Assembly: GCF_020529025.1 (NCBI RefSeq) | Contig: NZ_JACNMM010000007.1 | Span: 186,001-250,000, forward strand | DNA from: Oceaniglobus trochenteri | GTDB taxonomy: Bacteria > Pseudomonadota > Alphaproteobacteria > Rhodobacterales > Rhodobacteraceae | Reading direction: 5' to 3' | DNA: 64,000 nt | In this document: piece by piece, positions 1 through 47,280 of the stretch | Position numbering within the stretch: position 1 is the first letter of the stretch | Layout of the letters: each line of letters begins with the position of its first letter | Program-made: the position numbers and the translations under genes | The notes under the pieces: generated by a model | The model's input: the letters and a program-made list of their open reading frames with translations, nothing else | What the model was told of the DNA's origin: nothing | Databases searched by the model: none

Positions 1-796
1 CCTCGCCCGACAGGCTTGCGCCGGGGGCAAGGCGTGCCATCTGCGGCGCGGCGTCCATGTTGGGCGCATTGGTCAGGTGGCTGACCGGCTCGACGCAGGT
101 ATAACCGCGCGGATTGTCATGAATGACCAGGTGGTCCATTCCCACGGGCGCCGTGATCCGCAACTTCGCCCCGCCCGACAGGGCAAGATCGACATAGCCC
201 CACCCCGAGAGCGAGCTCGTCGCAGCCTGCAGGGGGCCGGGGCGGTGACGCTCACCCGTGGGCAGCCCGTCGTCATCGTGGGGCCACTGCCAGCGCGCAT
301 CGGAGACGATGGTTTCGGCCCTTGGGAAATAGGGATGCCAGCCGACACCTGCGGGCATGTCCCGGTGATCGCGGTTGATGATCTCAAGCGTGACGGACAG
401 CCCGGTTTCATCCAGCCGAAACACCTGCCGGGCCTCGAAGGACCAGGGCCAATCCTCGTCGGCGGCATAGAGGCAGCGCAGCGTTGCCCGGTCGGTGCCG
501 TGATCGTCAACCTCCCAGGGGGTCCGGTGCGCGGGGCCGTGCAGGCTGTGCGGGGCGGCATCGGGATGGGCGGCAAGCCGGGCCTGCCCGCCGTCCCACG
601 GAAAGGCGGCATTGCCCATGCGCCCGTGATAGGGAAACAGCGGATAGCCGCCGCCCTTGGGCCAGCGAAGGCGATCGAAGCTTTCCGCCGCGCAGGGATA
701 GAGCAGATCGCCTGCCGACGCATGGATCAGCCGCAGCATCCGCCCGCCCCAGTCCGGGGCCAGGATTGCCGCAAGGTCGCCGCAAGAGATCTTCAC
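1..796 (-). CDS. Aldose 1-epimerase-family protein (3' end outside window)
   Basis: About 265 codons are visible before the frame runs off the left edge without a stop. The start is GTG at 796, overlapping the stop of the uronate dehydrogenase gene as GTGA, so the two genes are translationally coupled. The frame shows the galactose-mutarotase fold landmarks: WGGRMLRL near the N-terminus, YPLFPYHGRMGNAAFPW, then HSLHG (first catalytic His), GWHPYF (second His), and CVEPVSH..N near the visible end, carrying the catalytic Glu. Such enzymes interconvert anomers of free sugars or sugar acids in the cytoplasm. Next to uronate dehydrogenase, a hexuronate is the likely substrate (inference). Confidence 0.85.
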   Translation of the reverse strand, partial: MKISCGDLAAILAPDWGGRMLRLIHASAGDLLYPCAAESFDRLRWPKGGGYPLFPYHGRMGNAAFPWDGGQARLAAHPDAAPHSLHGPAHRTPWEVDDHGTDRATLRCLYAADEDWPWSFEARQVFRLDETGLSVTLEIINRDHRDMPAGVGWHPYFPRAETIVSDARWQWPHDDDGLPTGERHRPGPLQAATSSLSGWGYVDLALSGGAKLRITAPVGMDHLVIHDNPRGYTCVEPVSHLTNAPNMDAAPQMARLAPGASLSGE

Positions 797-1611
797 GACC
801 AAAGCGTCCGCTCGGCGTCGCCGTCGAAGCCGTTGCCGGCAAAGGCCCCGCCCTGAAAGCGATCGGCAAGCGTTTCGGCCGCCACCTCACCCTGAGCGGT
901 AAGGGCATGGGCGCGATGATCCTCGGCGCGGTGGGCCGGGCGATACCCAAGCTGGAAGGCCTCCTGGTTGTCCCAGAAGGTGCGGACGTTGTCCGAGACA
1001 CCAAAGACGACGGCATGGTGCAGCTTCGGATGCTCAAGCCCTATGGCGCAGAGTTGCAGCAGGTCCTCGGGATGGAGCCAGACCGAAAGGCGGCGCAGAT
1101 CCAGAGGTTTCGGCGCAACGTTGCCGATGCGGATCGACAGGCACCGCATCCCGTGCTTGTCGGCATAGAGCGCCGCGACCGCTTCGCCGAAAACCTTGCT
1201 GAGCCCGTAATGGCCATCGGGACGCACGGGTTCCTTCGTGCCGATGCGGCGATGGCGGGGGTACATGCCGATGGCATGGTTCGAGGATGCGAAGACCACG
1301 CGTTCGACACCTGCGCGCCGTGCGCCTTCGAACAGGTTCATGACACCCTCGATGTTGGGCGCGGCAACCTCTGCCCAGGTGCCGTCGTTCGGCCGGCCGC
1401 CAAGATGGATCACGCCGGTCACGCCGTCGCAGGCGCGGCGGATGGCATCGACATCGCCAAGATCGGCCTGGCGGAACACCTCGCCTTCCGCCAGGTCGGC
1501 GGGTTCGGTCCGATCAGACAGGACAAGCCGTCCGTACCTTTGCAACAGCAGTGGCCGAAGCATGACCGCCACCCGTCCGGCAGCTCCGGTCACCAAGATC
1601 CTCTGGTCCAT
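793..1611 (-). CDS. udh: Uronate dehydrogenase-like NAD-dependent epimerase/dehydratase
   Basis: This 272-residue extended SDR oxidises hexuronates to aldarolactones in the known Udh family. The N-terminal Rossmann motif is TGAAGRVA, in which the usual last Gly is Ala. VIHLGG follows, then FASSNHAIGMYP with Ser110, RPDGHYGLSKVFGE with the Tyr135/Lys139 pair, RIGN, TFWDNQ and RFQGGAFAGN. This series closely matches what I remember of Agrobacterium Udh in both order and length. ATG 1611 was chosen over an in-frame upstream start at 1707 because AGGA lies just upstream and the fold begins there. It is the first gene of a short leftward operon with the epimerase. Confidence 0.85.
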   Translation of the reverse strand: MDQRILVTGAAGRVAVMLRPLLLQRYGRLVLSDRTEPADLAEGEVFRQADLGDVDAIRRACDGVTGVIHLGGRPNDGTWAEVAAPNIEGVMNLFEGARRAGVERVVFASSNHAIGMYPRHRRIGTKEPVRPDGHYGLSKVFGEAVAALYADKHGMRCLSIRIGNVAPKPLDLRRLSVWLHPEDLLQLCAIGLEHPKLHHAVVFGVSDNVRTFWDNQEAFQLGYRPAHRAEDHRAHALTAQGEVAAETLADRFQGGAFAGNGFDGDAERTLWS

Positions 1612-1644
1612 CGTCCTGGCCTTTCCTGGGCGTTGCGTCCTTTC

Positions 1645-1673
1645 GCGATACTGCTTTTCGGCTCGCTTGTCAA
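1645..1673 (-). promoter_or_regulatory. Predicted sigma-70-type promoter for udh
   Basis: On the minus strand there is a perfect -35 box TTGACA (1673-1668), a 17-base spacer and TATCGC (1650-1645) as -10. It sits 34 bases upstream of the chosen udh ATG, which also supports that start. It is read from sequence only. Confidence 0.55.
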
Positions 1674-1690
1674 AAGTGGTCTTTCCATTT
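1674..1690. promoter_or_regulatory. Candidate GntR operator between udh and gntR promoters
   Basis: An imperfect palindrome, AA-n-TGG-N5-CCA-n-TT, lies between the two divergent -35 boxes. FCD-type GntR regulators bind short palindromes in such positions, so it is a candidate site for the regulator encoded from 1752. The match is short. Confidence 0.3.
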
Positions 1691-1700
1691 CCAGCCCTGA

Positions 1701-1730
1701 TTGACAACTTATGACCCCTCTGCCTATCCT
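1701..1730 (+). promoter_or_regulatory. Predicted sigma-70-type promoter for the GntR regulator at 1752
   Basis: TTGACA at 1701-1706, an 18-base spacer and TATCCT at 1725-1730 give a good promoter with a leader of only about 15 bases before the RBS-ATG at 1752. It faces away from the udh promoter. Confidence 0.5.
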
Positions 1731-1751
1731 GCGGTTGAAAAGAGGTCGCCC

Positions 1752-2498
1752 ATGACGCCGCACAGCAGGAATTTCGCCGAAGACCCCGATCAGGACGACA
1801 ACGACGGGCCCGAAGAACTGCGCGAGTCGCCCCTTGCGGATCAGGTCTATGAACGCATCCTGGAACGCATCATCGACGGCGATTGCCCGCCGGGCACGCG
1901 CCTGCCTGCCGAACAGGCATTCAGTGCCGAACTGGGGGTGTCGCGCCCCGTCCTGCGTCAGGCGCTCAGGCAGTTGCGCGCCGATGGTCTGATTCAGTCG
2001 CGGCGCGGCTCGGGTTCTTACGTCCAGAAGCGCCCCGATCGCGAGATGCTGCGCTTTGCCCCGGTGGGAAGCATCACCGACCTGGGCCGCACCTTCGAAT
2101 TTCGCGCCACCGTCGAAAGCGAGGCGGCGGCACTGGCCGCCGAACGCTGGCAGCCCGAGGGGATGGCACGGATCGAGGCAGCCCTTGCGACGATGGACCG
2201 CACGGTTGCCGAGGGGAAAATGGCCGCCAAGGACGATGAGGAACTGCATCTCGCAATCTGTGCCGCGGCGGGAAACCACTATTTCCTGGATGCGCGGCGT
2301 TCCTTGCACGACCAGATCCTGACGGGCATGAATGTCGCGCTCAGCCTCTCGCATGCCAAGCCGCGCGCGCGGCTTGCCCTGGTGCAGGGCGAACACCGCA
2401 AAGTCGTCGAGGCGATCCGCCGGCGCGATGGCGATGCCGCCCGTGATTCCATGCGCACCCACATCGAGAACGCGCGCCAGCGTGTCTTTGGCGGCTAA
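1752..2498 (+). CDS. GntR/FCD-family transcriptional regulator
   Basis: This is a 248-residue regulator. The N-terminal winged helix includes LADQVYERILERII, then LPAEQAFSAELGVSRPVLRQ and GLIQSRRGSGSYV. A helical FCD effector domain follows, with FRATVESEAAALAAE, DEELHLAICAAAGNHYF and EHRKVVEAIRRRDGDAARDSMRTHI. FCD regulators of this kind usually repress sugar-acid operons until a pathway metabolite binds. ATG 1752 has AGAGG seven bases upstream; an earlier in-frame start at 1701 would overlap the promoter. It precedes the dehydratase and sulfatase genes and is divergent from udh, which suggests it controls both. Confidence 0.9.
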   Translation: MTPHSRNFAEDPDQDDNDGPEELRESPLADQVYERILERIIDGDCPPGTRLPAEQAFSAELGVSRPVLRQALRQLRADGLIQSRRGSGSYVQKRPDREMLRFAPVGSITDLGRTFEFRATVESEAAALAAERWQPEGMARIEAALATMDRTVAEGKMAAKDDEELHLAICAAAGNHYFLDARRSLHDQILTGMNVALSLSHAKPRARLALVQGEHRKVVEAIRRRDGDAARDSMRTHIENARQRVFGG

Positions 2499-2543
2499 GT
2501 CACCGGCCCCGCCCCGTCCGACCGAAAGAAGACAGGAAACGCC

Positions 2544-3764
2544 ATGAAGATCACAGCCATCGAGACGATCCGAAACGAGGAATGGTCGAACTTCCTTTGG
2601 GTCAGGGTTGAAACCGATGCCGGGCTGGTGGGGCTTGGCGAAACCTTCCGCCATGTCACGCCCATCGCCCGCTATGTGCATGACCACCTGGCGCCCTGGC
2701 TTCTGGGGCGCGATGCGGGGGCGGTGAACGCCCACGATCACGCGATGCGCCGCCACGGTGGATTGCGCTTCAGCGGCTATCCCACCCGCTCGGTCGAGAT
2801 CCGCGCCAACTCGGCTGTCGATATCGCCCTCTGGGATCTGAAGGCACGGGCGGCCGGGATGCCGCTCTGCGATCTGCTGGGCGGGCCGGTGCGCGACCGT
2901 ATCGCGATCTACAACACCTGCGCCGGTCCGTCCTATAACTGGCAATCGGGGGCCGAACGGGCACGGATCGTCCAGGACGGCGACGCCGCCCTTGCCGGCG
3001 ATGTGCCCGACGATCTTGCCGCCCAGGCCAGCGACCCCGGCGCCCTGGCGCAATCCCTCCTGGAAGAGGGCATCACCGCGATGAAGATCTGGCCCTTCGA
3101 TGCAGCCGCCGAGGCCTCGGGCGGGCACCGCATTTCGGGCGACGAGATGCGCGCGGCCCTGTCGCGCATCGCCGCGATCCGCGACGCGGTGGGTGACCGC
3201 ATGGATATCCTGCTGGAGTATCACGGGTTGTGGAACGCCGCGCCCGCCCGCCGCATCCTGGCCGAGGTGGATGAGTTCAACCCCTTCTGGCACGAAGACC
3301 CGATCCCCATGGAAGAGATCGCCACCCTCGCCGAATTGCGGCGCGGCACGAAGACCCCGATCGCCGGCAGCGAAAGCCACGGCACCGCCACCTGGATCCG
3401 CGATGCCTTGGCGGCGGGGGCCGTCGATTACCTGCATTTCGACATCGGCTGGACCGGCGGCATCAGCGAGGCGCTGCGCATCGCCCACCTGGCCGCGGCC
3501 CACGACCGCCTGATCGCACCCCATGACTGCACCGGCCCCGTCGTCTGGATCGCCAACCTGCATCTGGCGATGAGCCAGCCCAACGCGCTCTGGCTGGAAA
3601 GCGTGCGGGCCTATTACAAGGGCCTGTACCGCCGGTTGGTGACCGAACTGCCGAAGATCGAGATGGGCAATGCCCTGGCCATGCAGGGGCCTGGCCTTGG
3701 CACCGAACTGTCCGAAGAGCTGCTGAACCACCCCGCAACCCATATCGAACGCACCACTGGCTGA
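2544..3764 (+). CDS. Mandelate racemase/muconate lactonizing enzyme-family dehydratase
   Basis: This 406-residue enolase-superfamily enzyme probably dehydrates an aldonate or aldarate to a 2-keto-3-deoxy acid. The capping domain ends at SAVDIALWDLKARAAGMPLCDLLGG. Barrel residues visible are Lys181 in AMKIWPFD, metal ligands Glu225 (LLEYHG), Glu251 (WHEDP) and Glu277 (GSESHG), Asp300 (HFDIGWTGG) and His327 (APHDCTGP). The first ligand is Glu instead of the common Asp. The exact substrate cannot be read from the sequence. It lies 45 bases after the regulator and 9 bases before the sulfatase, so it is probably in the same operon. The neighbouring Udh points to a uronate-derived acid. Confidence 0.85.
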   Translation: MKITAIETIRNEEWSNFLWVRVETDAGLVGLGETFRHVTPIARYVHDHLAPWLLGRDAGAVNAHDHAMRRHGGLRFSGYPTRSVEIRANSAVDIALWDLKARAAGMPLCDLLGGPVRDRIAIYNTCAGPSYNWQSGAERARIVQDGDAALAGDVPDDLAAQASDPGALAQSLLEEGITAMKIWPFDAAAEASGGHRISGDEMRAALSRIAAIRDAVGDRMDILLEYHGLWNAAPARRILAEVDEFNPFWHEDPIPMEEIATLAELRRGTKTPIAGSESHGTATWIRDALAAGAVDYLHFDIGWTGGISEALRIAHLAAAHDRLIAPHDCTGPVVWIANLHLAMSQPNALWLESVRAYYKGLYRRLVTELPKIEMGNALAMQGPGLGTELSEELLNHPATHIERTTG

Positions 3765-3773
3765 GGACCGAAG

Positions 3774-5243
3774 ATGACCAAGGATAGCAGGCCGAACATC
3801 ATCTTCCTGATGCCCGACCAGATGCGATGGGATTTCGTCGGCGCCTATGGGGCGCCCCATGCCCGCACCCCAAACATGGATGCGCTGGCCGCGCGCGGGA
3901 CCGTCTTTGAAAGATGCCTGTCCCCCTCGCCGGTCTGCATCCCGGCCCGGGCCTCGATGCTGACAGGGCACAATCCGCTTTCGACCGGCGTTCTGGACAA
4001 CAACCACTGGCTGCGCCCCGATCATGACGCCTGCGGCGTGCCCAGCTTTGCCACACTGCTTTCAAGGGCGGGCTATCACACCGAGGCGATCGGCAAGATG
4101 CACTTTATCCCCTGGGACAGCGCCGAGGGTTTCGACCACCGGGTCATCGCCGAGGACAAGCGCCACATTCACATCCGCGACGATTATCACGATTACCTGG
4201 AGCGGAACGGGTTGCGGAAATATGCCGGCGCCGAAGAGCCGGGCTATGTCGAAGGGCGCATGGCGTCGATCAGCCTTGTGCCAGCCGAACACCAGGTCGA
4301 TGCATGGGTTGGCAATCACAGCGTCGATTTCCTTGAGCGCCACGACGGCGACGGGCCGTTCTTCCTGTGGGCCGCCTTTCCCGGCCCCCACGATCCCTAT
4401 AACCCCACACCCGATCTGCTGGCCCAGGTCACCGAGGATATGCCCGAGGCCTTCGCCGCCACCCCCGAAACCGAGCCCTTCCGCCCCGGCATGATCGAGG
4501 CGCATCTCAAGGGGTCGTCCGGGGTCGACATCTCGGATTTCGACGACGCGACGAAGCTGCGGATCCGGCGCCATTACCAGGCCCTGATCCGCCTGATCGA
4601 TGCCCAGGTCGGCGCCATCGTCGCCGCCGCCGAGGCCCGCGACGACGGGCGCGAAACGTTGATCGTGCTGTCCTCGGACCACGGCGATTTCCTGGGTGAT
4701 TTCGATTTCCTGGGCAAGGTGCTGTTCCATGAATCCTCGATGCGGGTGCCGATGATCGTGGCCGGGGCCGGCACGCCCGTCGCCCGGTCGGATGCCCTGG
4801 TTTCACTGACCGATGTCTTTGCCACCTTCTGTGCCGCCGCAAGGGTGCCCGCCGCCTGCCAGGACAGCCTGCCCCTGCCGGGCATCGGCCTTGGCGACAA
4901 ACGGCGCGGGCATCTCATGGGTGCCACCGACAAGGGCTATTGCATCGCGGATGCCCGCTGGAAACTGTCGCGCTATCGCAACGGGGTCTGCACCCTGCAC
5001 GACATCGTCGAAGACCCCCGGGAACAGCACAACCGGTGGTCTGACCCGGCCTGCAGCGACCTGCGCGAAGCGCTCGACCGCAAGCTGACGGCATGGCTGA
5101 TCGCCTCGGCCATGGATGGGCACAAGGACAAGAGCTATCCCTACATGACCATGACGCCCGACCATCCGGGCCACGGGCGGGGGTGGAAACGAACCTATCC
5201 TGCCGACCCGTGGAGCGGGGATCTGCCCCGGGGGTTGCATTGA
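3774..5243 (+). CDS. Sulfatase (alkaline phosphatase superfamily)
   Basis: This 489-residue protein has the sulfatase N-terminus NIIFLMPDQMRWD (metal ligand Asp15). The formylglycine-type motif CIPARASMLTG has Cys55 and Arg59, with Ala where Ser is more usual (C-x-P-A-R). Further active-site residues are Lys108/His110 (IGKMH), His206 (GPHDPY), Asp302/His303 (SSDHGD) and Lys315 (LGKVLFHE). No signal peptide is seen, so the enzyme looks cytoplasmic and would act on imported small substrates. Phosphonate monoester hydrolases share this fold and remain an alternative. Its partners, a sugar-acid dehydratase and uronate dehydrogenase, favour a sulfated sugar. No formylglycine-generating enzyme is encoded in the window. 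Confidence 0.87.
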   Translation: MTKDSRPNIIFLMPDQMRWDFVGAYGAPHARTPNMDALAARGTVFERCLSPSPVCIPARASMLTGHNPLSTGVLDNNHWLRPDHDACGVPSFATLLSRAGYHTEAIGKMHFIPWDSAEGFDHRVIAEDKRHIHIRDDYHDYLERNGLRKYAGAEEPGYVEGRMASISLVPAEHQVDAWVGNHSVDFLERHDGDGPFFLWAAFPGPHDPYNPTPDLLAQVTEDMPEAFAATPETEPFRPGMIEAHLKGSSGVDISDFDDATKLRIRRHYQALIRLIDAQVGAIVAAAEARDDGRETLIVLSSDHGDFLGDFDFLGKVLFHESSMRVPMIVAGAGTPVARSDALVSLTDVFATFCAAARVPAACQDSLPLPGIGLGDKRRGHLMGATDKGYCIADARWKLSRYRNGVCTLHDIVEDPREQHNRWSDPACSDLREALDRKLTAWLIASAMDGHKDKSYPYMTMTPDHPGHGRGWKRTYPADPWSGDLPRGLH

Positions 5244-5261
5244 TGCGCCGGGCGGGCGCGC

Positions 5262-6146
5262 TCAGCCTTCCATGACGGGAAGCGGAACGCCCTGAACGCC
5301 GGGAACGGTAAGCGCGAAAACCCCACCGGCCTGCGGCTGTGCCGGATCGTCCGCGGCACCGATCGAGGTGCAATAGAGGGTGCGCATGTCCGGCCCGCCG
5401 AAGGCCGGCCGTGTCGGACGCGCGACCGGCATCGGGATATCCATGTCGATCCGCCCCTCGGGCGTCAGGCGCAGCAGATGCCCGCCACCCACCCCGGCCA
5501 TCCAGTAACAGCCATCGGTATCGATCGCCGCCCCGTCCGGGCGGCCGGCGACAGCGCGGGTATCGAAAAACAGGCGCCTGTTGCTCCATGCGCCGTCGTC
5601 GGGGTCATAATCATGGGCCCAGATCAGGCGCACGTCGGGAAAACTGTCCGAAACATAGGCCGTCCGCCCGTCCGGCGAAAAGGCCAGCCCGTTGATGGTG
5701 TGAAAACCGTCCATCACCCGACGCGCCGGGGCGGTCCCGTCGAATGAATAGAGCGTGCCGCTGCTGTCTTCGGGTGTGGGGCCCGTCAGCGGCATTGTTC
5801 CGGCCAGGAAACGCCCACGATGATCGACCGAACCGTCGTTGAAGCGGTGGCCACGCTCGGCCGGGCGGGGGCCGGACAGGAATTGCAGGTGGCCGGTTGC
5901 AGGGTCGAATTCGTGAAAGCCCTCGGTCAGGGCCACCACCACCCGGCCATTCGCGCGCAGCGCAAGGCATCCGGCGGGCATCCCCATGTCCCAGCTGGCG
6001 TTTTCGCCCCGAGCGGGATCGTGGCGGTGAAGCCGTTTGCCGGCGATATCGACCCACCAAAGCGCCTGTTCGGCCACCGACCAGATCGCGCCCTCGCCCA
6101 GTGTCGCGCCGACATCGACGACGCAGTCAACAACCGGAGCAGCCAT
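5262..6146 (-). CDS. SMP-30/gluconolactonase-family lactonase
   Basis: This 294-residue six-bladed propeller hydrolase most likely opens a sugar-acid lactone. The first metal ligand is Glu19 in LGEGAIW. Later landmarks are RFNDGSVDHRGRFLAGTM, INGLAFSPDGRTAYVSD and GRPDGAAIDTDGCYW, which hold the expected Asn and Asp ligands. ATG 6146 overlaps the stop of the ABC ATPase gene by one base (TGATG), so it is the last gene of the importer operon. The aldarolactone made by Udh is a logical substrate (inference). The 3' end faces the sulfatase gene with an 18-base gap and no obvious terminator. Confidence 0.88.
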   Translation of the reverse strand: MAAPVVDCVVDVGATLGEGAIWSVAEQALWWVDIAGKRLHRHDPARGENASWDMGMPAGCLALRANGRVVVALTEGFHEFDPATGHLQFLSGPRPAERGHRFNDGSVDHRGRFLAGTMPLTGPTPEDSSGTLYSFDGTAPARRVMDGFHTINGLAFSPDGRTAYVSDSFPDVRLIWAHDYDPDDGAWSNRRLFFDTRAVAGRPDGAAIDTDGCYWMAGVGGGHLLRLTPEGRIDMDIPMPVARPTRPAFGGPDMRTLYCTSIGAADDPAQPQAGGVFALTVPGVQGVPLPVMEG

Positions 6147-7894
6147 CACGACACCCCCGCGTCTTCATAGCGATGACGCAGATGCATGCTGCGCGCCGTC
6201 GGGTCAGGATGGGGAACGGCCGAGATCAGCGCCTTGGTATAGGGGTGCTGGGGGTTGTCGCAGACCTGGCTTGCCGGCCCCATCTCGACGATCTCGCCCT
6301 TGCGCATGACGGCGACGCGATCGCAGAAATAGCGCACGACGCCGATATCGTGGGCGATGAAGACAAAACTCAGGTCCAGCCGCTCTTGCAGGCGGATCAG
6401 CAGATCCAGAACCTGACTGCGGATTGACACGTCCAGCGCCGATGTCGCCTCGTCGCAGATGACGACACGCGGCTCCAGCGCGATGGCGCGGGCGATGCAG
6501 ATACGTTGCCTCTGGCCGCCCGAGAAGGCATGGGGATAGCGTTCGGCCACAGCGGCGGGCAGGCCGACCTGCTCCAGCAGGTCGTAGACCCGGTCGCGCA
6601 GCGCGTCGCCCCTGGCGATTCCGTTGTTGAGCAGGGGTTCTGCCACGATCTGACCCACGGTCATGCGCGGATTGAGCGAGCCATGGGGATCCTGGAAGAC
6701 CATGCGCACCTGGCGGCGATAATTGCGCAGCGCCTCGCCCTCCAACTGCCCGACATCGCCCCCTGCCCCGCCGTTTTCATGAAACCGGATGCCGCCTTCG
6801 CTGGGGCTGAGCACGCTGGCAAGCACGCGACCCAGGGTCGTCTTGCCCGACCCGCTTTCCCCGACGATGCCAAGGGATTCCCCGCGGCGCAGATCGAAGG
6901 ACACGTCGTTCACCGCGCGAAACCCCCTTGCCGGGCCTTTCCGCTTGGGCCCGCGAAGGGGAAACACCACGCTGACGTTCTTCACCGACAGGATCGGGTC
7001 GGTCTGTTCGGCAAGCACCTCGGCTTCGGGGCGCTTGATCTCGGCGCGCTGTTCCAGCTTGACGACCGACTCCAGCAGCCGCCGGGTATAGGCGTGGCGC
7101 GGGTTGGCGAAAATCTCGTTCACCTCGCCGGTCTCGACGACCTTGCCGTGGCGCATCACCACCACATCGTCGGCGATCTCGGCCACGACGCCCATGTCGT
7201 GGGTGATGAACATGATCGCCATGTCGTGCTTTTCCTGAAGGCTGCGCATCAGGTCCAGGATTTCGGCCTGGGTTGTCACGTCCAGGGCGGTTGTCGGTTC
7301 GTCCGCGATCAGAACCTGGGGGTTGCACGACAGGGCCATGGCGATCATGGCGCGCTGGCGCATCCCGCCCGAGAATTCGAAGGTGTACTGATCGATGGCC
7401 TTCTCCGGCTCGCGGATTTCGACCTGGGCCAATAATTCGATGGCGCGGGCGCGGGCCTCGGCCTTGGTGACCTTTTCGTGCAGGCGGATGGATTCGATGA
7501 TCTGGTTGCCGATGGTATGGACCGGTGAAAGCGACGACATCGGTTCCTGGAAGATCATCGCGATGTCACGCCCTCGGATGGCACGGATCGCGCGCGACCG
7601 GGGGTGCAGGGTGGCGATGTCCACCTCGCCCCCGCCGGTCCTCAGCGCGATGGTGCCACCGACGATCCGCCCCGGCGCATCGACGATCTGCAGGACCGAA
7701 CGCGCCGTGACGGACTTGCCCGACCCGCTTTCACCCACGACGCAGGTGGTCTTTCCACGCCGCAGTTTCAGCGAAACGCCATCGACCGCATGAACCGTCG
7801 CGTTGCGCATCGGAAAATGTGTGGCAAGGTCGCGAATATCCAGGATGACATCCCCGCGCGCATCCACCTTGTCCTCGACGCTCGTTTTCAGCAT
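6146..7894 (-). CDS. Fused Dpp/Opp-type ABC transporter ATPase (two nucleotide-binding domains)
   Basis: A DppD-like and a DppF-like ATPase are joined in one 582-residue chain. The first half has [23 protein letters not shown] and [11 protein letters not shown]. The second has [24 protein letters not shown] and [11 protein letters not shown]. Each half ends with the oligopeptide-type C-terminal segment, for example [14 protein letters not shown] and [14 protein letters not shown]. It energises uptake by the permeases encoded just upstream. The RBS overlaps the end of the preceding permease gene. Such fusions are common in alphaproteobacterial Dpp-like systems. The lactonase gene downstream and uxuA upstream suggest a sugar-acid or oligosaccharide cargo instead of peptides. 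Confidence 0.92.
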
Positions 7895-7903
7895 GCGATA
7901 CCC

Positions 7904-10058: not shown

Positions 10059-10090
10059 GACAATGTTCCCTGGGGTGGGGGCAGGTGGTA

Positions 10091-38456: not shown

Positions 38457-38471
38457 GGGAGCGTCTTTCGT

Positions 38472-40145: not shown

Positions 40146-40155
40146 GCCGGGCCTC

Positions 40156-41325
40156 TCAGTTTGCATAGGGGTCGGCGGCATCGCGCAGGCCGTCACCGAC
40201 GAAGTTCATCGCCAGAACGGCAATCACGATGGCGGCACCGGGCACCAGCAGCCAGGGCGCGGTGGCCAGGGTGCGGATGTTCTGCGCCTCTTGCAGAAGC
40301 ACGCCCCAGGAAATGACCGGCGCCTGAAGCCCGAGCCCAAGAAAGGACAGCGCGGTTTCCGCCAGGATCATCCCCGGCACGGCCAGCGATGCGGCGGTGA
40401 TGATGTGGCTTGTGAAGGCGGGCACCATGTGGCGCACGATCACCCGGCCATGGGAGCAGCCGTCATAGCGGGCGGCGGCAACGTAATCTTCGCCGTTCAG
40501 CGCCAGGAACCGCCCCCTGACCACCCGGGCCAGTTCGGTCCAGCCCAGGAAGGACAGGATCAGCGTGATGGCGAAATAGGTTTGCAGAGGCGACCAGCCG
40601 CTGGGCATGGCCGCGGCCAGCCCCATCCACAGCGGAATGGTAGGCAGGGATCGCAGGAATTCGATCACCCGCTGCGTGGCGGCATCGAACCAGCCGCCGA
40701 AATACCCCGCCGCCCCGCCGATGATGACGCCGAGGACCAGGCTCATGATGACGCCGACAAGGCCGACCGACAGCGAAATCTGCGTGCCATAGGCCACCCG
40801 CGAGAACATGTCGCGGCCCAGCCTGTCGGCCCCGAAGATGTAAAGCGGATCGCGGGTCTTTTCCGGGCCGATCAGGTGCAGGTCGGTGGGGATCAGGCCG
40901 AACAGCTTGTATTCCCAGCTGCGCTTGAAGAAGGTCAGGTAGATCTTCTTTTCCTCGTCGATCACGAAGGTGCGGCGCAGGGCCACCGGGTCGATCTCGA
41001 CGTCGTAGCCATAGACATAGGGGCGGAACGACCAGCCCTCTTCGGTGCGGTCGATGAAATGCAGCCCCTGGGGCGGCGCGAAGGTATAGCGCGCCTTGAC
41101 GTCACCCGGATCGTTGGGCGAAATGAAGCCGGCAAAGAGGGCGACAAAGCCGAACAGCGCCAGGATCACCAGGCTGATCATCGCCAGGCGGTGCTTGGAA
41201 AAGCGGCGGCGGATCAGTTGCCATTGGCTTTCGGTGCCGGCATTGCCATCGATGCGCGGGTCAATGTCGCCCGAGGGCGCCTCGAGCCGGGTGTCGGGGC
41301 TGTCTGCGGGGGGAATGATCGACAT
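40156..41325 (-). CDS. Dpp/Opp-type ABC transporter permease (DppC-like, second copy)
   Basis: This 389-residue permease has the cytoplasmic arm ESQWQLIRRRFSKHRLAMISL and helix 1. A long periplasmic insertion follows, containing GLHFIDRTEEGWSFRPYVYG, and then RLGRDMFSRVAYGTQISL. The end is NFVGDGLRDAADPYAN. The insertion parallels VHLIDRTEEGGLTIRPWVW in the copy at 7904, showing common ancestry of the two cassettes. Its ATG overlaps the upstream permease stop by one base. Confidence 0.92.
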   Translation of the reverse strand: MSIIPPADSPDTRLEAPSGDIDPRIDGNAGTESQWQLIRRRFSKHRLAMISLVILALFGFVALFAGFISPNDPGDVKARYTFAPPQGLHFIDRTEEGWSFRPYVYGYDVEIDPVALRRTFVIDEEKKIYLTFFKRSWEYKLFGLIPTDLHLIGPEKTRDPLYIFGADRLGRDMFSRVAYGTQISLSVGLVGVIMSLVLGVIIGGAAGYFGGWFDAATQRVIEFLRSLPTIPLWMGLAAAMPSGWSPLQTYFAITLILSFLGWTELARVVRGRFLALNGEDYVAAARYDGCSHGRVIVRHMVPAFTSHIITAASLAVPGMILAETALSFLGLGLQAPVISWGVLLQEAQNIRTLATAPWLLVPGAAIVIAVLAMNFVGDGLRDAADPYAN

Positions 41326-42323
41326 CAGTTCGCTCCTACCATGCCAAGCCGGATGCGCGGGTCGATCCAGGCCAGCAGAAGATCGGAAATCAGCGTGCCC
41401 ACCAGCGTCAGAAGACCCATGAAGAGGATCAGCGCACCCGCCAGATACATGTCCTGGCTCAGCAACGCGCGCAGAAGGATGGGCGACAGGGTGGGCAGGT
41501 TCAGCACGATGGCGGTCACGAAAGAAGACGAGATCACCGTGGGCAGCACCCAGCCGATGGTCGACACCAGCGGGTTCATGGCCACGCGGACGGGATAGCG
41601 CCAGATCACCTTGCGCCGCGCCAGACCCTTGGCGCGGGCGGTCAGGACATAGGGCTTGTTCAATTCATCCAGCAGGTTGGCGCGCAGCACGCGTACCAAT
41701 TGCGCCGCGCCGGCGGTGGAAATCACCAGGATCGGCGCCCAGACATGGCTGGCGAAATCCAGGAACCGGTCAAGCGACCAGCGCGCGTTCATGTATTCGG
41801 CCGAGAAGAGGCCGGTGATCGTGACCCCGAACCAGTTATAGCAGACATACATCAGGATCAGCGCGAACAGGAAATTCGGGATCGCAAGGCCCAGGAAGCC
41901 CAGGATCGTGGCGACGTAATCGCCGATCGAATACTGGTTCACCGCGGAATAGATGCCGATGGGAATGGAAATCGCCCACATCACCACCACGGCCGTCAGT
42001 TCGACCGCCAGCGATATACCGATGCGCTGCGAGAAGATCTCGCCAACGGGGCGCTGCATTTCAAAGCTGTAGCCGAATTCGCCGCGCAGCAGATCGCCCA
42101 GCCAGGCGGCGTATTGGACAAGGACCGGGGAATCCAGCTTGTAGCGTTCGCGCAGGGCGATGATCGTTTCCTGGTCCACGCTTTCGCCCGCCGCCGACAG
42201 GCTGGCGATATAGGAGGTAACGAAATCCCCCGGTGGCAGCTGGATCACGACAAACACCACCACGGACAACGCAAGAAGCGTGAACACCATGGTCACAAGC
42301 CGACGCGCGATATAGCCAAGCAT
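41325..42323 (-). CDS. Dpp/Opp-type ABC transporter permease (DppB-like, second copy)
   Basis: This 332-residue permease begins MLGYIARRLVTMVFTLLALSVVVFVVIQLPPGDFVTSYI. It has YKLDSPVLVQYAAWLGDLLRGEFGYSFEM, the coupling loop ELNKPYVLTARAKGLARRKVIWRYPVRVAMNP and a C-terminal LLAWIDPRIRLGMVGAN. It corresponds closely to the permease at 9072. It follows its binding-protein gene after a 63-base gap with a strong stem-loop. Confidence 0.92.
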   Translation of the reverse strand: MLGYIARRLVTMVFTLLALSVVVFVVIQLPPGDFVTSYIASLSAAGESVDQETIIALRERYKLDSPVLVQYAAWLGDLLRGEFGYSFEMQRPVGEIFSQRIGISLAVELTAVVVMWAISIPIGIYSAVNQYSIGDYVATILGFLGLAIPNFLFALILMYVCYNWFGVTITGLFSAEYMNARWSLDRFLDFASHVWAPILVISTAGAAQLVRVLRANLLDELNKPYVLTARAKGLARRKVIWRYPVRVAMNPLVSTIGWVLPTVISSSFVTAIVLNLPTLSPILLRALLSQDMYLAGALILFMGLLTLVGTLISDLLLAWIDPRIRLGMVGAN

Positions 42324-42352
42324 CCGTTTCCCCCCTGTTCGGTTCCGGGTCG

Positions 42353-42380
42353 GACGGGCGCGGAAAACCCCGCGCCCGTC
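42353..42380 (-). other. GC-rich intercistronic stem-loop after the second binding-protein gene
   Basis: An 11-base perfect inverted repeat (42353-42363 with 42370-42380, arm GACGGGCGCGG) encloses a six-base loop between the binding-protein stop and the permease ATG. No long T-run follows. It mirrors the stem at 10091-10115 in the paralogous cassette, suggesting a conserved role in setting binding-protein versus permease expression. Confidence 0.65.
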
Positions 42381-42386
42381 GCCCTG

Positions 42387-44276
42387 TCACTTCTTGTAGT
42401 AAAGCTGAGCCGGTTCCATCGGGCCCGGCTGCGGATAAAGCCAGGTATAGATCTGACCATCCGGCACGTTGCCAAGGTTCGATTTCGCTACCACATAGCC
42501 GTCGGCGGGCAGGACCGTGCCGATGACATAGAACTGATCTGCGGCGATATCCAGGATCTCGCCGAACAGCTCTTTCTGGCGCTCCTTGTCGGCGGTTGCC
42601 GTCATTTCAAGGTACAGATCCATCTGCTTCTGCACCTCGGCGGGCGGCGCTTCGGCCAGGGTGCTGCCGCTTTTCATGAAATGCTGCGCCCATTTTTCGG
42701 CATAGGCCGATTCAAGGTTGAAGGGGAAATAGAAGCGCGGATCGAGAAGCGCGTCATTCAGCCCGCCATCGCCCCACCAGATGTGCATGTCGTGGCTGTT
42801 GTTCTGCACCCTTTCGTAGACCAGCGAACGTTCGGCGTTGCGCGCATCGAGGTCGATGCCGATCTCCTTCCACTGCTCGACGACAAGCTGGGCCACGTCG
42901 TTGAACTCGGACTGGTCCGAGGGCGACAGAAGCTGGATACGGATCGGCTCACCGTCATACCCGAGGCGGATGCCATCGGCGTTGCGCTCGGTCAGGCCCA
43001 GGCCGTCCAGAAGCTCGTTCGCGCGGTCGGGGTCGTATTCGGTGAACTGGGTCGCCAGTTTTTCGTTGTACAGCGCCGAAGTGGGGCGCGGTGCGGCCTG
43101 ATAGGGTTCGCCCTGCCCGGCGAAGACCACGTCGATGATTTCTTCGCGATCCATGCCAAGGCTCAGCGCGGCGCGGAAATCCTTTTCGTTGTACAGCTTG
43201 CGCTTGTTCTCGTCCTCGTGGGTCAGGTTCAGCTGGAAGATCGCGTTGTTCATCCGCGCATCGACCGTCGACTTCAGGGTGTAGCCTCCGCTTTCCTGCG
43301 CGTCATAGATCACCGGCTTGTTGGCCACGGTGGCGAAGTGACGGTTGGAAAAGTCGATCTCGCCCGCGACGACCTTCAGCACGATGTCCTCGACGCTTTC
43401 GGTCTGGATCATCTGCACGTCGTCGATATAGGGCAGCTGCTGACCCTCGGTATCGACCTTGAAGAAGTAGGGGTTGCGCTCCCATTCGATCAGCTGGTTC
43501 AGCCCGTCATAGGGCGTGGTCTGGCGCCAGGCGAAAAGAAGCGGGCGGTCTTCATCGACGAAGTTGAAGAAACAGGTCTGTTCCACAGCCTGGCTCCAGG
43601 ATTCGTACCCGTCCGCCTTGGCGTTGTCGTTCGCCGCTTCATCCGTTTCGGGGAAATACTTGCCGCAGTAATGCTTGGCCGCGTTCACGATGAACATGCC
43701 CTCGACCGAAGCCAGACGCTCCAGCAAAAAGCCGTTGGGTTCGGTCAGGGTGATCTTGAAGGTCTGCGGATCGATGACCTCGCCCGTCATCTTCTCCCAC
43801 TCGAAGCCGCTGGCCTTGCGGCCGCCATAGGCGGGGCTTTTCATCAGGTCGAGCGCGAACTTCAGGTCTTCGGCGGTGAAGGGTTCACCGTCCGACCACT
43901 TGTGACCCTTGCGCAGATGGAAGGTGAACTCGGTCGCGTCGTCGTTCACTTCGAATTCTTCGGCAACGTTGGGGAAAACGCCGGTCCATTCCAGATCATA
44001 GGCCACCAGGGGCTCATAACCCACCGAGCGGCGGATCCAGCCGCTGTCATAGGTGCCCTTCAGCGCCGAACGCCATGTGCCGCCATAGGTGCCCACCGAT
44101 TCAATCGGCGTCAGGACATAGGGGTTTTCCGGCAACCGCTCGGCCACGGGGGCCAGATCGCCGGCCTCGACCGCCGCGTCCAGTTCAGGCGCCTGGGTAT
44201 ATTCCTGCGCCAAGGCCGGCCCGGCCATGGCCAGGATCGCCACGAGCGATACGCTCATCCGATTTCTCAACATCAT
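42387..44276 (-). CDS. ABC transporter substrate-binding protein (SBP_bac_5, second copy)
   Basis: This 629-residue periplasmic receptor has a signal peptide running through RMSVSLVAILAMAGPALA, with cleavage before QEYTQAPELD. It shares with the copy at 10127 the motifs YVLTPIESVGTYGGTWR, EFTFHLRKGHKWSDGEPFTAEDL and YDPDRANELLDGLGLTERNADG. The start is ATG 44276, nine bases after GGGAGG; that RBS lies inside the last codons of the TIM-barrel gene, so the two are coupled. The ligand is probably carbohydrate-derived, given the DUF2264 and LacI neighbours (inference). Confidence 0.93.
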   Translation of the reverse strand: MMLRNRMSVSLVAILAMAGPALAQEYTQAPELDAAVEAGDLAPVAERLPENPYVLTPIESVGTYGGTWRSALKGTYDSGWIRRSVGYEPLVAYDLEWTGVFPNVAEEFEVNDDATEFTFHLRKGHKWSDGEPFTAEDLKFALDLMKSPAYGGRKASGFEWEKMTGEVIDPQTFKITLTEPNGFLLERLASVEGMFIVNAAKHYCGKYFPETDEAANDNAKADGYESWSQAVEQTCFFNFVDEDRPLLFAWRQTTPYDGLNQLIEWERNPYFFKVDTEGQQLPYIDDVQMIQTESVEDIVLKVVAGEIDFSNRHFATVANKPVIYDAQESGGYTLKSTVDARMNNAIFQLNLTHEDENKRKLYNEKDFRAALSLGMDREEIIDVVFAGQGEPYQAAPRPTSALYNEKLATQFTEYDPDRANELLDGLGLTERNADGIRLGYDGEPIRIQLLSPSDQSEFNDVAQLVVEQWKEIGIDLDARNAERSLVYERVQNNSHDMHIWWGDGGLNDALLDPRFYFPFNLESAYAEKWAQHFMKSGSTLAEAPPAEVQKQMDLYLEMTATADKERQKELFGEILDIAADQFYVIGTVLPADGYVVAKSNLGNVPDGQIYTWLYPQPGPMEPAQLYYKK

Positions 44277-44281
44277 GTTTC

Positions 44282-45097
44282 TCAACCTCCCATTGATTTC
44301 ATGCTGGTTTCATCTTCGCCCCGGGTGCCGCAAAGGGCGTGCAGATGGCGAATGTCGTCGCGGAACCGTGCGGTCGTGTCGTCCTGCACGAATTCCAGAA
44401 AGGCGGTGCGCGGGTGGGGCCAGGCATCGGCCACCTGCCAGCGATGGAACAGGGCGCGCCAGTCTTCCACACCTTCGGCCAGAGGGCGGCGCTTCTGGCC
44501 CTCGTCGGTCATGATCCAGTGAAAGACATGCAGATCGCCCAGGTGGGGCGCCAGCAGGTCAAGCTCGGCCTGCCACCTTGCAAGGCCACGGCCCGGCACC
44601 GGCTGCCAATAGGTAAAGAGGTTCGGATGCGCGGCGGCCTTCAGCAGGGCCAGGGTATCGGCGGCCTCTTCGGTCAGGGAATTGCGGTGGTATTCCACGC
44701 TGACGGTGATGTTCCTGTCCTGCGCCAGGGCGGCCATATGGGCCAGGTCGCCGGCGGCCGTGGCAAAGGCATCCTCGCCCGCCTTGTCGCGCCGTGCCGT
44801 CCCGGCCCAGACGCGGATGTTTCCCGCACCAAGGGCGGCCACCGACTTCAGCACGGTTTCAAAATCCACGCGCGCGCCTTCGTTGCCTGCGCGCACGTAC
44901 GACCCGTACGAACACGAGTCGATTCCCCGCGCCGCGCCCGCCGCACGGATCGCGGCGGCGCGGCCCATGTCGCCGGGGGGCAGGTGAACGTCGCCACCCC
45001 ATTCGATCGCGGCAACACCGGTTTCGGCGGCAAGGTCGATCACCGCGTCGGGCGACAGGTCGCGGAAGGTCACGGAACAGAGACCCGGGCGGATCAT
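44282..45097 (-). CDS. Sugar phosphate isomerase/epimerase-family TIM-barrel protein
   Basis: This 271-residue AP-endonuclease-2-type barrel begins MIRPGLCSVTFRDLSPDAVIDLAAETGVAAIEWGGDVHLPP. Probable metal ligands are in VSVEYHRNSLTEE, DLHVFHW and AFLEFVQDD. The family isomerises or epimerises sugars and sugar acids; the substrate is unknown. ATG 45097 overlaps the dehydrogenase stop (ATGA) and has GGGAG upstream. It lies between a hydroxyacid dehydrogenase and the binding-protein gene in the LacI-controlled operon. Confidence 0.85.
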   Translation of the reverse strand: MIRPGLCSVTFRDLSPDAVIDLAAETGVAAIEWGGDVHLPPGDMGRAAAIRAAGAARGIDSCSYGSYVRAGNEGARVDFETVLKSVAALGAGNIRVWAGTARRDKAGEDAFATAAGDLAHMAALAQDRNITVSVEYHRNSLTEEAADTLALLKAAAHPNLFTYWQPVPGRGLARWQAELDLLAPHLGDLHVFHWIMTDEGQKRRPLAEGVEDWRALFHRWQVADAWPHPRTAFLEFVQDDTTARFRDDIRHLHALCGTRGEDETSMKSMGG

Positions 45098-46116
45098 GCC
45101 AGACGCTCCCAATCGCCGAAGGCCACTTCGTTCTGAAGCGGCTCACCCCGGCAGAACCTTTCGATGTCCGACAGCACCAGCTGCGTCATGTCGCACACCT
45201 CGTGCCCGAAGGACCCGGCGATATGCGGGGTAAGCTGGACGTTGTCCATGTCCCAGAGGGGGGAATCGTCGTTCAGCGGTTCGGGGTCGGTCACGTCGAT
45301 CACGGCGCGCAGGCGCCCGTCGGCCATGGCCGCTTCCAGCGCGGCGGTATCAATGATCCGTCCGCGCGCGGTGTTGATCAGCAGGGCGCCGTCGCGCATC
45401 CTGGCGAATTCGGCAGCCCCGAACGACCGTTCCGTGTTGGGCAGAAGCGGCTGGTGCAGGCTGACCACATCGCTTTGCGTCAGCAGTTGCTCCATGGTCG
45501 CCTTCGTTGCACCCAGGTCGCGCACCTCGTCTTCGCTGAGGAACGGATCGTGCAAGAGCACGGAAATCTGGTGCCGCCGCAAATGGCCGATCACCAGCCG
45601 CCCGATGCGCGATGCCCCGACGATCCCCACGGTGCGCCCGCGGTTGCCCACCAGGGCCTGCATCGGGTCGGTGCGGGTGGACATGGCGCTGCGCCGTTCG
45701 CGGTAGATGCGGCGCCAATCCTCGACCCGCTTCAGGTGCAACAGGATATGGGCGACGGTGAATTCCGACACCGGGCGCGCATTGGCCGCCACGGCATTGA
45801 CCACCCGCAGGCCGCTGTCGGCGATTTCGGGCGTCAGCAGCGCCTTTACCGTGCCCGCAAGATGGGCGATCAGTTTCAGGTTGGGCATCCGGCGGCGCAG
45901 GTCGGCATCCACGGGCCGCGACCCCCAGCCGGTGATCAGGATATCGACCTGCGACAGGGCACCGTCAATTTCGGGCGCGCGCAGGTCGGCAACCGGGCCG
46001 GGCGCAAGAAGTTCGGTCATCGCGGCGAGGGCCGAGAGGTGGCCATCGCGGCAGGAGGGCGGAAAATGGATGTCGAACTGCTGTGGCTTGAGCTGGATCA
46101 GTGAACGGTATCGCAA
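45094..46116 (-). CDS. D-isomer-specific 2-hydroxyacid dehydrogenase-family protein
   Basis: This is about 340 residues. The NAD-binding domain has VGIVGASRIGRLVIGHL, followed by LHDPFLSEDEVRDLGA, VSLHQPLLPNTERSFGA and LINTARGRIIDTAALEAAM. The Arg, Glu and His catalytic set is visible as NTARG, DVTDPEPL and LTPHIAGSFG. I place the start at TTG 46116, five bases after GGGAGGAA; an in-frame ATG at 46161 lacks an RBS and overlaps the presumed operator. It is the first structural gene of the second LacI operon and would interconvert a 2-oxo and a 2-hydroxy sugar acid. Confidence 0.85.
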   Translation of the reverse strand: MRYRSLIQLKPQQFDIHFPPSCRDGHLSALAAMTELLAPGPVADLRAPEIDGALSQVDILITGWGSRPVDADLRRRMPNLKLIAHLAGTVKALLTPEIADSGLRVVNAVAANARPVSEFTVAHILLHLKRVEDWRRIYRERRSAMSTRTDPMQALVGNRGRTVGIVGASRIGRLVIGHLRRHQISVLLHDPFLSEDEVRDLGATKATMEQLLTQSDVVSLHQPLLPNTERSFGAAEFARMRDGALLINTARGRIIDTAALEAAMADGRLRAVIDVTDPEPLNDDSPLWDMDNVQLTPHIAGSFGHEVCDMTQLVLSDIERFCRGEPLQNEVAFGDWERLA

Positions 46117-46155
46117 GTCTTCCTCCCGGCACGCATCTGCGCTTGCGGGTGAAAG

Positions 46156-46200
46156 TTGCATGACTTGCACTAACGCGCAAGTTTTGCAATTTCTTGCACA
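46156..46200. promoter_or_regulatory. Candidate LacI operator cluster before the dehydrogenase operon
   Basis: Four TTGCA half-sites occur at 46156, 46165, 46184 and 46194 on the plus strand. The first pair, TTGCATGACTTGCAC, is identical at 14 of 15 positions to an element in the lacI upstream region (47363-47377). This region lies directly before the operon start at 46116. Confidence 0.6.
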
Positions 46201-46251
46201 AAACCGGCAAATGGCCACAACCATACCCGCCAAGTCATTGAAGCGGTTACC

Positions 46252-47280
46252 TCAATTCACATCGGCCACGGAGTTGCGATCCTTCAGCAGAACTTCGGTC
46301 TCTGTCTTTTGCGTAGGTCGGCGAGGTTCCGCGTGGCGCAACAGCAAAAGCCGAATCGCCTCGGTCCCCAGATACTCCCAATCGACGGCCATGGTGCTGA
46401 GCAGGGGCGAGGACATTTCCGAATGCGGCAACCCGTTGAATCCCAGCAACGACACGTCGCCCGGCACATCGAAACCACGCAACCGCAGCGCCTGCATTCC
46501 GCTCAGCGCGACGTTGTCGGCGGCGCAGAAGATCGCCGTATAGGGAAAGGGCCGCTGGTCCAGCAGGGGCGCCAGGGCCTGCAATCCCTCGCGTTCAGTC
46601 ACGTTGGCCATGGTGACGTAATCGCAATGAATGTCTTTTGGCGCCGCATCCTCGATCGCCTGGCGAAAGCCATCGGTGCGGGCGCGCAGGGTCCAGCGGC
46701 GGCTGGTGCCCAGGTGCAGGATGCGCCTGTGCCCCTTGCGGATCAGGTATTCGGCCGCCATCCGTCCGCCGAAGAAATTGTTGGGCGCGACGTGATCCAG
46801 CGTCATCGTCGGGTCAAGCCCGTTGACCATCACCGCCGGATGCCCCCCGGCCACAAGCCGCTGCATCAGCCGCTGCGACGGATCGACCCCGGCCAGAAGA
46901 ACACCGGTTTCCGCACCGCCCAGGATCAGGTCGGGAATGTCGCCGTCATCCCCCAGCAGCGAGAATTCGATGGGCAGGTCGGCCTCCCTTGCGGCCTTGC
47001 GCAGACCCGCGGTCACGAAATGATAGATCGAGGCCGAGCCGCTGTTGGTATCCACCTGGTTCAGGAACAACAGCGCGCGTTTCAACCCGTGGCCCCGCGC
47101 CGCCTGTTTCGCACCAAGCGGACCAGGCACCTGGGTGCCCATATCCGAGGCCGCCCGCAGGACACGCGCCGTTGTGGCGGGGCTGATACCGGGGGCGCCG
47201 GACAATACCCGCGACACCGTTGAAACCGACACGCCGACCGCGCGCGCAATGTCTTCCTGCTTGATCCTTGGCTGTCGCAC
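46252..47280 (-). CDS. LacI-family transcriptional regulator (second)
   Basis: This 342-residue regulator starts at GTG 47280 after GGGGGCAGG. Its HTH reads IKQEDIARAVGVSVSTVSRVLSGAPGISPATTARVLRAA. The effector domain includes LKRALLFLNQVD, LILGGAETGVLLAG, KGHRRILHLGTSRRWTLRARTDGF and GDVSLLGFNGLPHSEMSSP. The frame stays open further upstream into ureG, but that part is not protein-like in this frame. It sits directly upstream of the operon it probably regulates, on the same strand. Confidence 0.9.
   Translation of the reverse strand: MRQPRIKQEDIARAVGVSVSTVSRVLSGAPGISPATTARVLRAASDMGTQVPGPLGAKQAARGHGLKRALLFLNQVDTNSGSASIYHFVTAGLRKAAREADLPIEFSLLGDDGDIPDLILGGAETGVLLAGVDPSQRLMQRLVAGGHPAVMVNGLDPTMTLDHVAPNNFFGGRMAAEYLIRKGHRRILHLGTSRRWTLRARTDGFRQAIEDAAPKDIHCDYVTMANVTEREGLQALAPLLDQRPFPYTAIFCAADNVALSGMQALRLRGFDVPGDVSLLGFNGLPHSEMSSPLLSTMAVDWEYLGTEAIRLLLLRHAEPRRPTQKTETEVLLKDRNSVADVN

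Follow-up and report, generated by a model that had tools for sequence, protein, structure and literature searches.

The closest described relatives of the system considered here are the GH154 enzymes BcGDH and BT3677. GH154 was proposed as a dehydratase family in 2025. In the accessible part of that report (PMC12269599) both enzymes, put forward as beta-D-glucuronate dehydratases, dehydrate glucuronate compounds; catalysis is proposed to involve Y229, R285 and Y289, and the step carried out by BcGDH lets GH88 act, the product being removed in that pathway via GH88. A haloarchaeal GH154 locus also combines the dehydratase with GH88 and an ABC importer, according to the part of PMC13260240 available. 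We analysed 64,000 nucleotides of the Oceaniglobus trochenteri genome (4.59 Mb, 33 contigs), namely positions 186001-250000 of contig C30 (G000:C30), referred to throughout as the window. Here a GH154-type gene of the DUF2264 family is also served by ABC importers, but its neighbour is a 2-hydroxyacid dehydrogenase and not GH88. We are inclined to regard two adjoining gene groups, module C (25024-36608) and module D (36612-47280), as a single locus that serves the breakdown of a small glycoside, taken up by the cell and built from beta-D-glucuronic acid and, probably, a 6-deoxy-L-hexose. The reading is drawn from sequence, synteny, palindromes and phylogeny, from which we infer all of the enzymatic steps and the regulation.

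Genes were called from open reading frames (ORFs) with codon-position GC and with Pfam and NCBIfam scans. The Pfam scan covered 50 ORFs between 793 and 58156, the left-edge gene and the last 6 kb lying outside it. It recovered, at or near the positions given by an initial annotation of this DNA, the families named there: a sulfatase, a uronate dehydrogenase, a lactonase, three MR_MLE enolases, a rhaM-family protein, an Amidohydro_2 protein, an SDR, a DHDPS-family protein, DUF2264 and three importers. The three enolases and three importers are distributed over modules C and D and a further group, module A, with binding proteins at 10127, 28964 and 42387. Families additional to that list are a Gfo/Idh/MocA dehydrogenase, an AP_endonuc_2 TIM barrel and the 2-hydroxyacid dehydrogenase.

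The DUF2264 gene (36612-38456, reverse strand) scores 411 bits against PF10022 (cut-off 25) and is the one match in its genome. Among solved structures it has matches to three distinct sequences, of which two are named beta-D-glucuronic acid or glucuronate dehydratase and one beta-galactosidase; the match to the beta-D-glucuronic acid dehydratase 9o4u has an E value of 8e-24. We equate DUF2264 with GH154 because of these Protein Data Bank (PDB) matches to BcGDH chains. Residues Y204, R257 and Y261 correspond to Y229, R285 and Y289 of BcGDH in a hand-counted HMMER alignment to 9nwf and 9o4u, the numbering being fixed by an alanine in 9nwf where 9o4u has arginine, and all three are conserved in 81 of 81 DUF2264 proteins. 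Since the translation has no evident signal peptide, the enzyme is presumably cytosolic. It would remove water across C4-C5 of a non-reducing-end glucuronate, and the family assignment and intact catalytic residues make glucuronyl dehydration by this protein a likely activity. The glucuronate component anticipated by the initial annotation is thereby supported. The likeness to BcGDH and BT3677 thus extends over the DUF2264 domain, the Y/R/Y residues and the expected dehydration of a non-reducing-end beta-glucuronate. In the available text of PMC12269599 BT3677 has a second domain and the setting is a Bacteroides polysaccharide utilization locus, whereas the window has ABC importers. The nearest named carriers of the window protein are an alphaproteobacterial metagenome-assembled genome (MAG), a Rhodobacteraceae MAG and Fluviibacterium (73-76% identity). 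No literature was found under the name DUF2264, and the papers retrieved for PF10022 are unrelated by title.

The other genes of module D lie on the same strand. An Opp-type importer (fused DF ATPase, C and B; 38472-42323) is followed by the SBP_bac_5 binding protein sbp5b (42387-44285), the xylose-isomerase-like TIM-barrel protein apendo (44282-45097), the D-2-hydroxyacid dehydrogenase hacid (45094-46110) and the regulator LacI2 (46252-47280); the importer, sbp5b, apendo and LacI2 were assigned with Pfam, and apendo with a predicted structure as well. The catalytic triad of D-2-hydroxyacid dehydrogenases is R/E/H; in hacid it is R249/E277/H296, and these residues are retained in 44 of 44 dehydrogenases. 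An AlphaFold2 model of hacid is a standard D-2-hydroxyacid dehydrogenase (pLDDT 89.0; best Foldseek E value 3.4e-25). The model of the TIM-barrel protein is of good confidence, but its structural neighbours are generic (AsbF and tagatose/psicose epimerases, with a C-glucosyl deglycosidase at rank 26) and therefore no function can be derived from them.

We surveyed the best 80 of 274 confirmed DUF2264 stretches, which are closely related to one another, using tblastn (E 1e-6, at least half of the query covered) with the window genes and the GH88 of locus L145 as queries. A homologue of the window dehydrogenase is found in 43 loci and GH88 in the other 37; no locus has both and none has neither. 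The TIM-barrel protein occurs in 18 of the 80, all of the dehydrogenase type. Record titles of dehydrogenase-type loci include Rhodobacteraceae, Devosia, rhizobia and Granulosicoccus. The GH88-type rhizobial loci (35 of L039-L109) resemble the window in combining the dehydratase with an ABC importer and differ in having GH88 and no 2-hydroxyacid dehydrogenase partner.

A quick tree was built from 81 rows of DUF2264, three of which have long branches. On it the partner label changes twice, and both changes are forced by starred branches. One is at the rhizobial GH88 group and the other, at L033 and L034, is nested in the window's own group. In its importer and dehydratase L033 shares 64-88% identity with the window, and beside them a GH88 gene on the opposite strand occupies the place of the TIM-barrel, dehydrogenase and LacI2 genes. 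The partner GH88 of G125 matches the unsaturated glucuronyl hydrolase 1vd5 with an E value of 2e-73 and keeps an aspartate whose counterpart in the 2ahf chain is asparagine. PF07470 was judged too insensitive for establishing the absence of GH88, the partner GH88 scoring 35 bits, and the search was redone with the protein itself. At E 1e-8 the partner-type GH88 was then found in six of six GH88-type genomes (drawn from the 37 such loci) and in two of 44 dehydrogenase-type assemblies (43 loci and the genome studied here); it was not found in the other 42, the present genome among them. The completeness of most searched assemblies is not stated, and several are MAGs.

This exclusive partnership points to processing of the dehydratase product that is independent of GH88, a route of which no description was found in the literature searched; nor was any paper joining GH88 with a hydroxyacid dehydrogenase found with both terms. 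The unsaturated residue may pass to the 2-hydroxyacid dehydrogenase, aided by the TIM-barrel protein, with this pair standing in for GH88. We regard direct functional replacement of GH88 by the pair as a speculative proposal. Equally tentative is its chemical form, in which the dehydrogenase, with or without the TIM barrel, would use redox chemistry to cleave or open Delta4,5-unsaturated glucuronides. The allylic C3 hydroxyl, for example, which makes the substrate a vinylogous 2-hydroxyacid, might be oxidized in an NAD-dependent step, after which the aglycone would be eliminated.

Several observations weigh against replacement. The surveyed loci are close relatives, so that the exclusivity amounts to about two independent switches, seen in 80 of the 274 stretches; with MAGs among the assemblies, absence of GH88 may reflect incompleteness. 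PF07470 is above its cut-off in five of 24 dehydrogenase-type genomes, so that an unlinked hydrolase is possible. No GH88/GH105 partner was found at the window locus; the sole PF07470 match of the genome (127 bits) is on contig C1, outside the window, and this GH88, which is of another subtype than the partner GH88 and adjoins its own LacI and enolase-type genes, could act in trans. The genome also has no clear KduI, with a strong match among iol-like genes (by eye) and a second that is marginal; the alternative isomerase DhuI was not searched for. The strong match, at G000:C10:12346-13128, is the genome's only one to the KduI/IolB family, and a standard KduI seems to be missing.

These points bear on an alternative that we consider plausible, if somewhat short of an even chance: the dehydrogenase and TIM barrel would be purely downstream. 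DUF2264 would act on free glucuronate, or its product would open spontaneously or through an unlinked hydrolase, and the dehydrogenase would reduce the resulting alpha-keto acid. The usual substrates of 2-hydroxyacid dehydrogenases are alpha-keto and alpha-hydroxy acids, and the product formed after GH88 is an alpha-keto acid, which suits this alternative, as do the GH88 on contig C1 and the lack of a clear KduI. It fits less well with the exchange of gene content at L033 and with the lack of any locus carrying both partners. A second locus type without GH88 (43 of the best 80) would make a missing step of glucuronide catabolism testable with two or three purified proteins, and absence of GH88 or GH105 need not imply absence of a glucuronide dehydratase pathway.

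That modules C and D make up one system is highly probable on the genomic evidence, because of synteny, co-occurrence and an operator common to both in two relatives. In L030 and L031 (two of the 80 DUF2264 loci) the gene order lacI2-hacid-apendo-sbp5b-opp-DUF2264, followed by dhdps-rhaM-mle3-malK-mle2-permease-permease-sbp1-lacI1, is identical to that of the window, with one extra gene, an FAA hydrolase, between DUF2264 and dhdps. Among the nine nearest DUF2264-bearing genomes (L030-L038), seven have a counterpart (66-70% identity) of the Gfo/Idh/MocA dehydrogenase of module C, and in all seven most module-C genes surround it. By comparison, mle3 occurs at 77% identity or above in two of 120 relatives, and DUF2264, at E 1e-30, in one of 120.

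The palindromes agree with this picture. Two LacI1-type sites (28857-28874 and 28900-28917, 43 bp start to start) are found in the window where 0.08 are expected, and the 43 bp pair recurs upstream of sbp1 in the window and in all eight other module-C loci with at most three mismatches. A C-type pair with the same 43 bp spacing lies in L033 between GH88 and sbp5b-opp-DUF2264; none of 400 first-order Markov simulations of L033 gave such a pair, the mean being 0.05 single matches. L034 has one C-type copy in the gap between GH88 and DUF2264, and a LacI1-like gene (56%) adjoins DUF2264 in L033. The 76 DUF2264 loci other than L030, L031, L033 and L034 gave four single C-type matches, about the chance level. 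In G124 the two copies are about 560 kb apart on one contig. The D genes of the window, L030, L031, L032 and L036 have a TGCAA-N4/5-TTGCR palindrome near lacI2. The probable LacI2 operator of the window, TGCAA-N5-TTGCA upstream of lacI2 (47353-47367), is one site where 0.01 is expected, and similar sites lie upstream of lacI2 in L030, L031, L032 and L036. A possible operator in the gap between lacI2 and the dehydrogenase gene (46185-46198) is weak when taken alone, 0.47 such sites being expected in the window. No LacI2-type site was found in L035, and that of L037 has a longer spacer. A LacI2-like site near the genome's own GH88 and another at 52782 were dropped as probable chance matches. In the window C and D each have a LacI gene and a palindrome of their own, through which they would be regulated; in two relatives the C-type palindrome is found at the DUF2264 genes. 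Two facts run counter to a single system: modules C and D bear different palindromes in the window, and G030 carries module C (L112) with no DUF2264 match.

The described systems closest to module C are the non-phosphorylating L-fucose and L-rhamnose pathways (FucM-A-B-C-F-G-H and LRA5/LRA6), which in the accessible part of PMC11199699 share with it the families of mutarotase, dehydrogenase, lactonase, enolase-type dehydratase, SDR and aldolase, together with the FAA hydrolase in relatives. Module C differs in having two enolase-type proteins and a Gfo/Idh/MocA protein, in lacking the hydrolase within the window and in two active-site positions of mle2. On the reverse strand are the lactonase-type Amidohydro_2 protein amid2 (25024-25953; counterparts 44-50% identical in eight module-C loci), an SDR dehydrogenase (25998-26744; 70-76% identical in seven of the eight), the Gfo/Idh/MocA dehydrogenase (26741-27811) and LacI1 (27808-28863). 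The forward strand carries the SBP_bac_1 binding protein sbp1 of a CUT1-type importer (28964-30277), two permeases (30299-31186 and 31183-32040), the L-rhamnonate-dehydratase-like enolase mle2 (32037-33188), a MalK-type ATPase (33192-34250), the enolase-superfamily protein mle3 (34254-35417), a rhaM-family mutarotase (35414-35722) and dhdps, a DHDPS-family aldolase or dehydratase (35736-36608). LacI1, sbp1, the permeases, the ATPase, rhaM and dhdps were assigned with Pfam; the solved chains nearest to mle3, 1rvk and 4hcd, are named just isomerase/lactonizing enzyme. The module-C counts leave out L111 (G019), which has counterparts of mle3 and dhdps while most of the module has none.

Gene families for an aldolase route of a non-phosphorylating deoxyhexose pathway are present in module C, and the FAA hydrolase was not found in the window. 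In relatives with a fetched module C this hydrolase adjoins dhdps in six of eight; none was found in G128, and the G126 stretch ends before the expected place. Uptake would proceed through the Opp-type importer of D and the CUT1-type importer of C, and the second sugar would pass from the mutarotase to the dehydrogenase, the lactonase, an enolase-type dehydratase and the DHDPS-type aldolase. Module C looks like a non-phosphorylating 6-deoxyhexose route, a reading with moderate support, and a 6-deoxyhexose is on balance our choice for the second sugar.

The 6-deoxyhexose may be rhamnose or fucose. The deoxy-sugar component of the initial annotation, L-rhamnose, is moderately supported as a 6-deoxyhexose by the families, by the hydrolase of the relatives and by an L-rhamnose isomerase gene near module C in G125. 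The closest relatives of mle2, in NCBIfam and among solved structures, are L-rhamnonate dehydratases, its score against their NCBIfam equivalog being 218.7 bits (cut-off 393). The FAA hydrolase of the relatives is nearest to the 2,4-didehydro-3-deoxy-L-rhamnonate hydrolase model (418.7 bits, cut-off 500). The mutarotase scores 82.9 bits in Pfam (cut-off 23.4) and 64.8 bits against TIGR02625 (cut-off 99.6). A non-phosphorylating pathway for L-fucose, or for another 6-deoxy or modified sugar, has perhaps one chance in three of being the correct reading. The sole NCBIfam match of amid2 is L-fucono-1,5-lactonase, far under the cut-off (88.8 bits against 400), and in the available text of PMC11199699 the L-fucose route has the same enzyme order and a hydrolase described as close to the rhamnose one; the affinities of mle2 and of the FAA hydrolase speak for rhamnose. 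All nine mle2 counterparts have asparagine and phenylalanine (N257 and F258 in the window) where L-rhamnonate dehydratases carry glutamate and histidine. In those enzymes the glutamate is the third metal ligand and the histidine directly follows it, both being active-site positions, so that mle2 is no proven L-rhamnonate dehydratase. The mle2 family possibly represents a new enolase specificity.

The surroundings of module C in G125 bear on the same question. Within about 55 kb (L145-L147 and L141; G125:C2:321-385 kb) are GH88-DUF2264, a KduI gene, module C, a second KduI gene, an L-rhamnose isomerase gene and a KdgK-like kinase gene, along with an FGGY kinase gene, a rhaM gene just above its cut-off and genes that by eye encode a sugar importer. 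Both KduI proteins are above the cut-off and the L-rhamnose isomerase reaches 719 bits (cut-off 647), while the KdgK-like kinase is below its cut-off. The group fits a rhamnose-plus-uronate diet of that cell. It can also be turned against a rhamnose role for module C, as with an isomerase operon nearby rhamnose may be degraded there by the isomerase route and module C may be for a different sugar. Module C of G124 adjoins what is possibly a sulfonate cluster (L140:305-7339), with genes that by eye resemble those of a TRAP transporter, histidinol dehydrogenase and sulfopyruvate decarboxylase. A lactate-dehydrogenase-like gene near module C in that genome was dropped as evidence, its neighbours resembling a sulfonate cluster by eye.

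The initial annotation had suggested that modules A, C and D may make up a single locus for a sulfated rhamnosyl-uronate such as ulvan. Synteny, co-occurrence and the operator common to both in two relatives uphold the link between C and D, but module A stands apart. The ulvan pathway of Formosa agariphila, in the accessible part of PMC8511951, offers a likeness in its dehydratase P29_PDnc, whose substrate is a saturated terminal uronate attached to rhamnose; P29_PDnc is stated in the available text of PMC12269599 to be unrelated in sequence to GH154. As the initial annotation had noted, no polysaccharide lyase is seen in the window: no lyase, GH78 or GH105 family was found among the 50 scanned ORFs, the genome not having been searched for lyases or GH78. 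An ulvan utilization locus would be expected to have an ulvan lyase plus GH105/GH78, and ulvan as the common substrate of A, C and D was rejected on the absence of these families from the scanned ORFs and on the lack of a close module A in genomes with C and D. The comparison of gene order proposed with the initial annotation gave the same division, C and D adjoining in L030 and L031 but no close module A being present in those genomes.

A three-module locus of the ulvan type is accordingly improbable in our estimation. Apart from the genes for L-rhamnose isomerase and KduI that G125 has close to module C, it draws on the fact that a sulfatase group beside C and D is seen twice, in the window and in G121, where an Opp-SBP5-enolase-sulfatase group (L136:3-8541) lies directly left of module C. 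The binding protein and sulfatase of that group, however, share 41% and 29% identity with their counterparts in the window. Of the two genomes where C and D adjoin, G121 has a best other match of 35% to the module A sulfatase and G122 has none at E 1e-40; neither C-type nor D-type palindromes were found in module A. At E 1e-60 this sulfatase has matches of 44-49% identity in three of 120 relatives and one of 44% in its own genome. Sulfatase and enolase genes also pair in many other places of the genome: ten of the 21 sulfatase genes (22 matches, two merged) have at least one of the 26 MR_MLE matches no more than 10 kb away, where uniform placement predicts 1.8. This pairing, on contigs C30, C24, C12, C29 and C1, suggests many oxidative modules for sulfated sugars. 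Given the G121 group directly beside module C, this guild may still use sulfated substrates. We judge module A to be a neighbouring but independent unit in which a sulfatase is combined with oxidative uronate genes.

Module A (1-13968) comprises an aldose epimerase gene, identified by eye only, at the left edge (1-788 and beyond), a uronate dehydrogenase gene (793-1611), a GntR gene, mle1, a sulfatase gene (3774-5243), an SMP-30 lactonase gene recognized by Pfam (5262-6149), an Opp importer, a UxuA-like gene and a second GntR gene. The uronate dehydrogenase is similar over nearly its full length to the solved enzymes 3ay3 (E 1e-55) and 3rft (E 8e-52) and belongs with them. The sulfatase (Pfam 165.5 bits, cut-off 25) has no evident signal peptide. 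C-x-P-x-R is the motif of S1 formylglycine sulfatases, and its CIPAR sequence fits. The mannonate dehydratase of the initial annotation corresponds to the UxuA-like gene (12095-13195), but the C-terminal half alone matches and the scores are below both NCBIfam cut-offs. The module runs on past the left edge of the window, where an SDR gene and two further genes of the enolase type are found, and farther left (L009:1050-8828) is an ORF of 2592 amino acids that is polyketide-synthase-like by eye. A second sulfatase module (L116, G000:C1:60000-79999) has SMP-30-, MalK-, SDR-, permease-, DHDPS- and enolase-like genes.

Block B (14153-24914, reverse strand), between A and C, is not part of the locus. 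It holds an aminotransferase of class IV, a fourth importer, which is PotABCD-like and whose permease has two domains, caprolactamase-like hydantoinase B and A genes (under the cut-offs), a PanB-like gene and a Rieske gene, an odd combination that is possibly a lactam or amide pathway. Module D is followed on the right by urease genes and by an importer of the branched-chain type that probably takes up urea.

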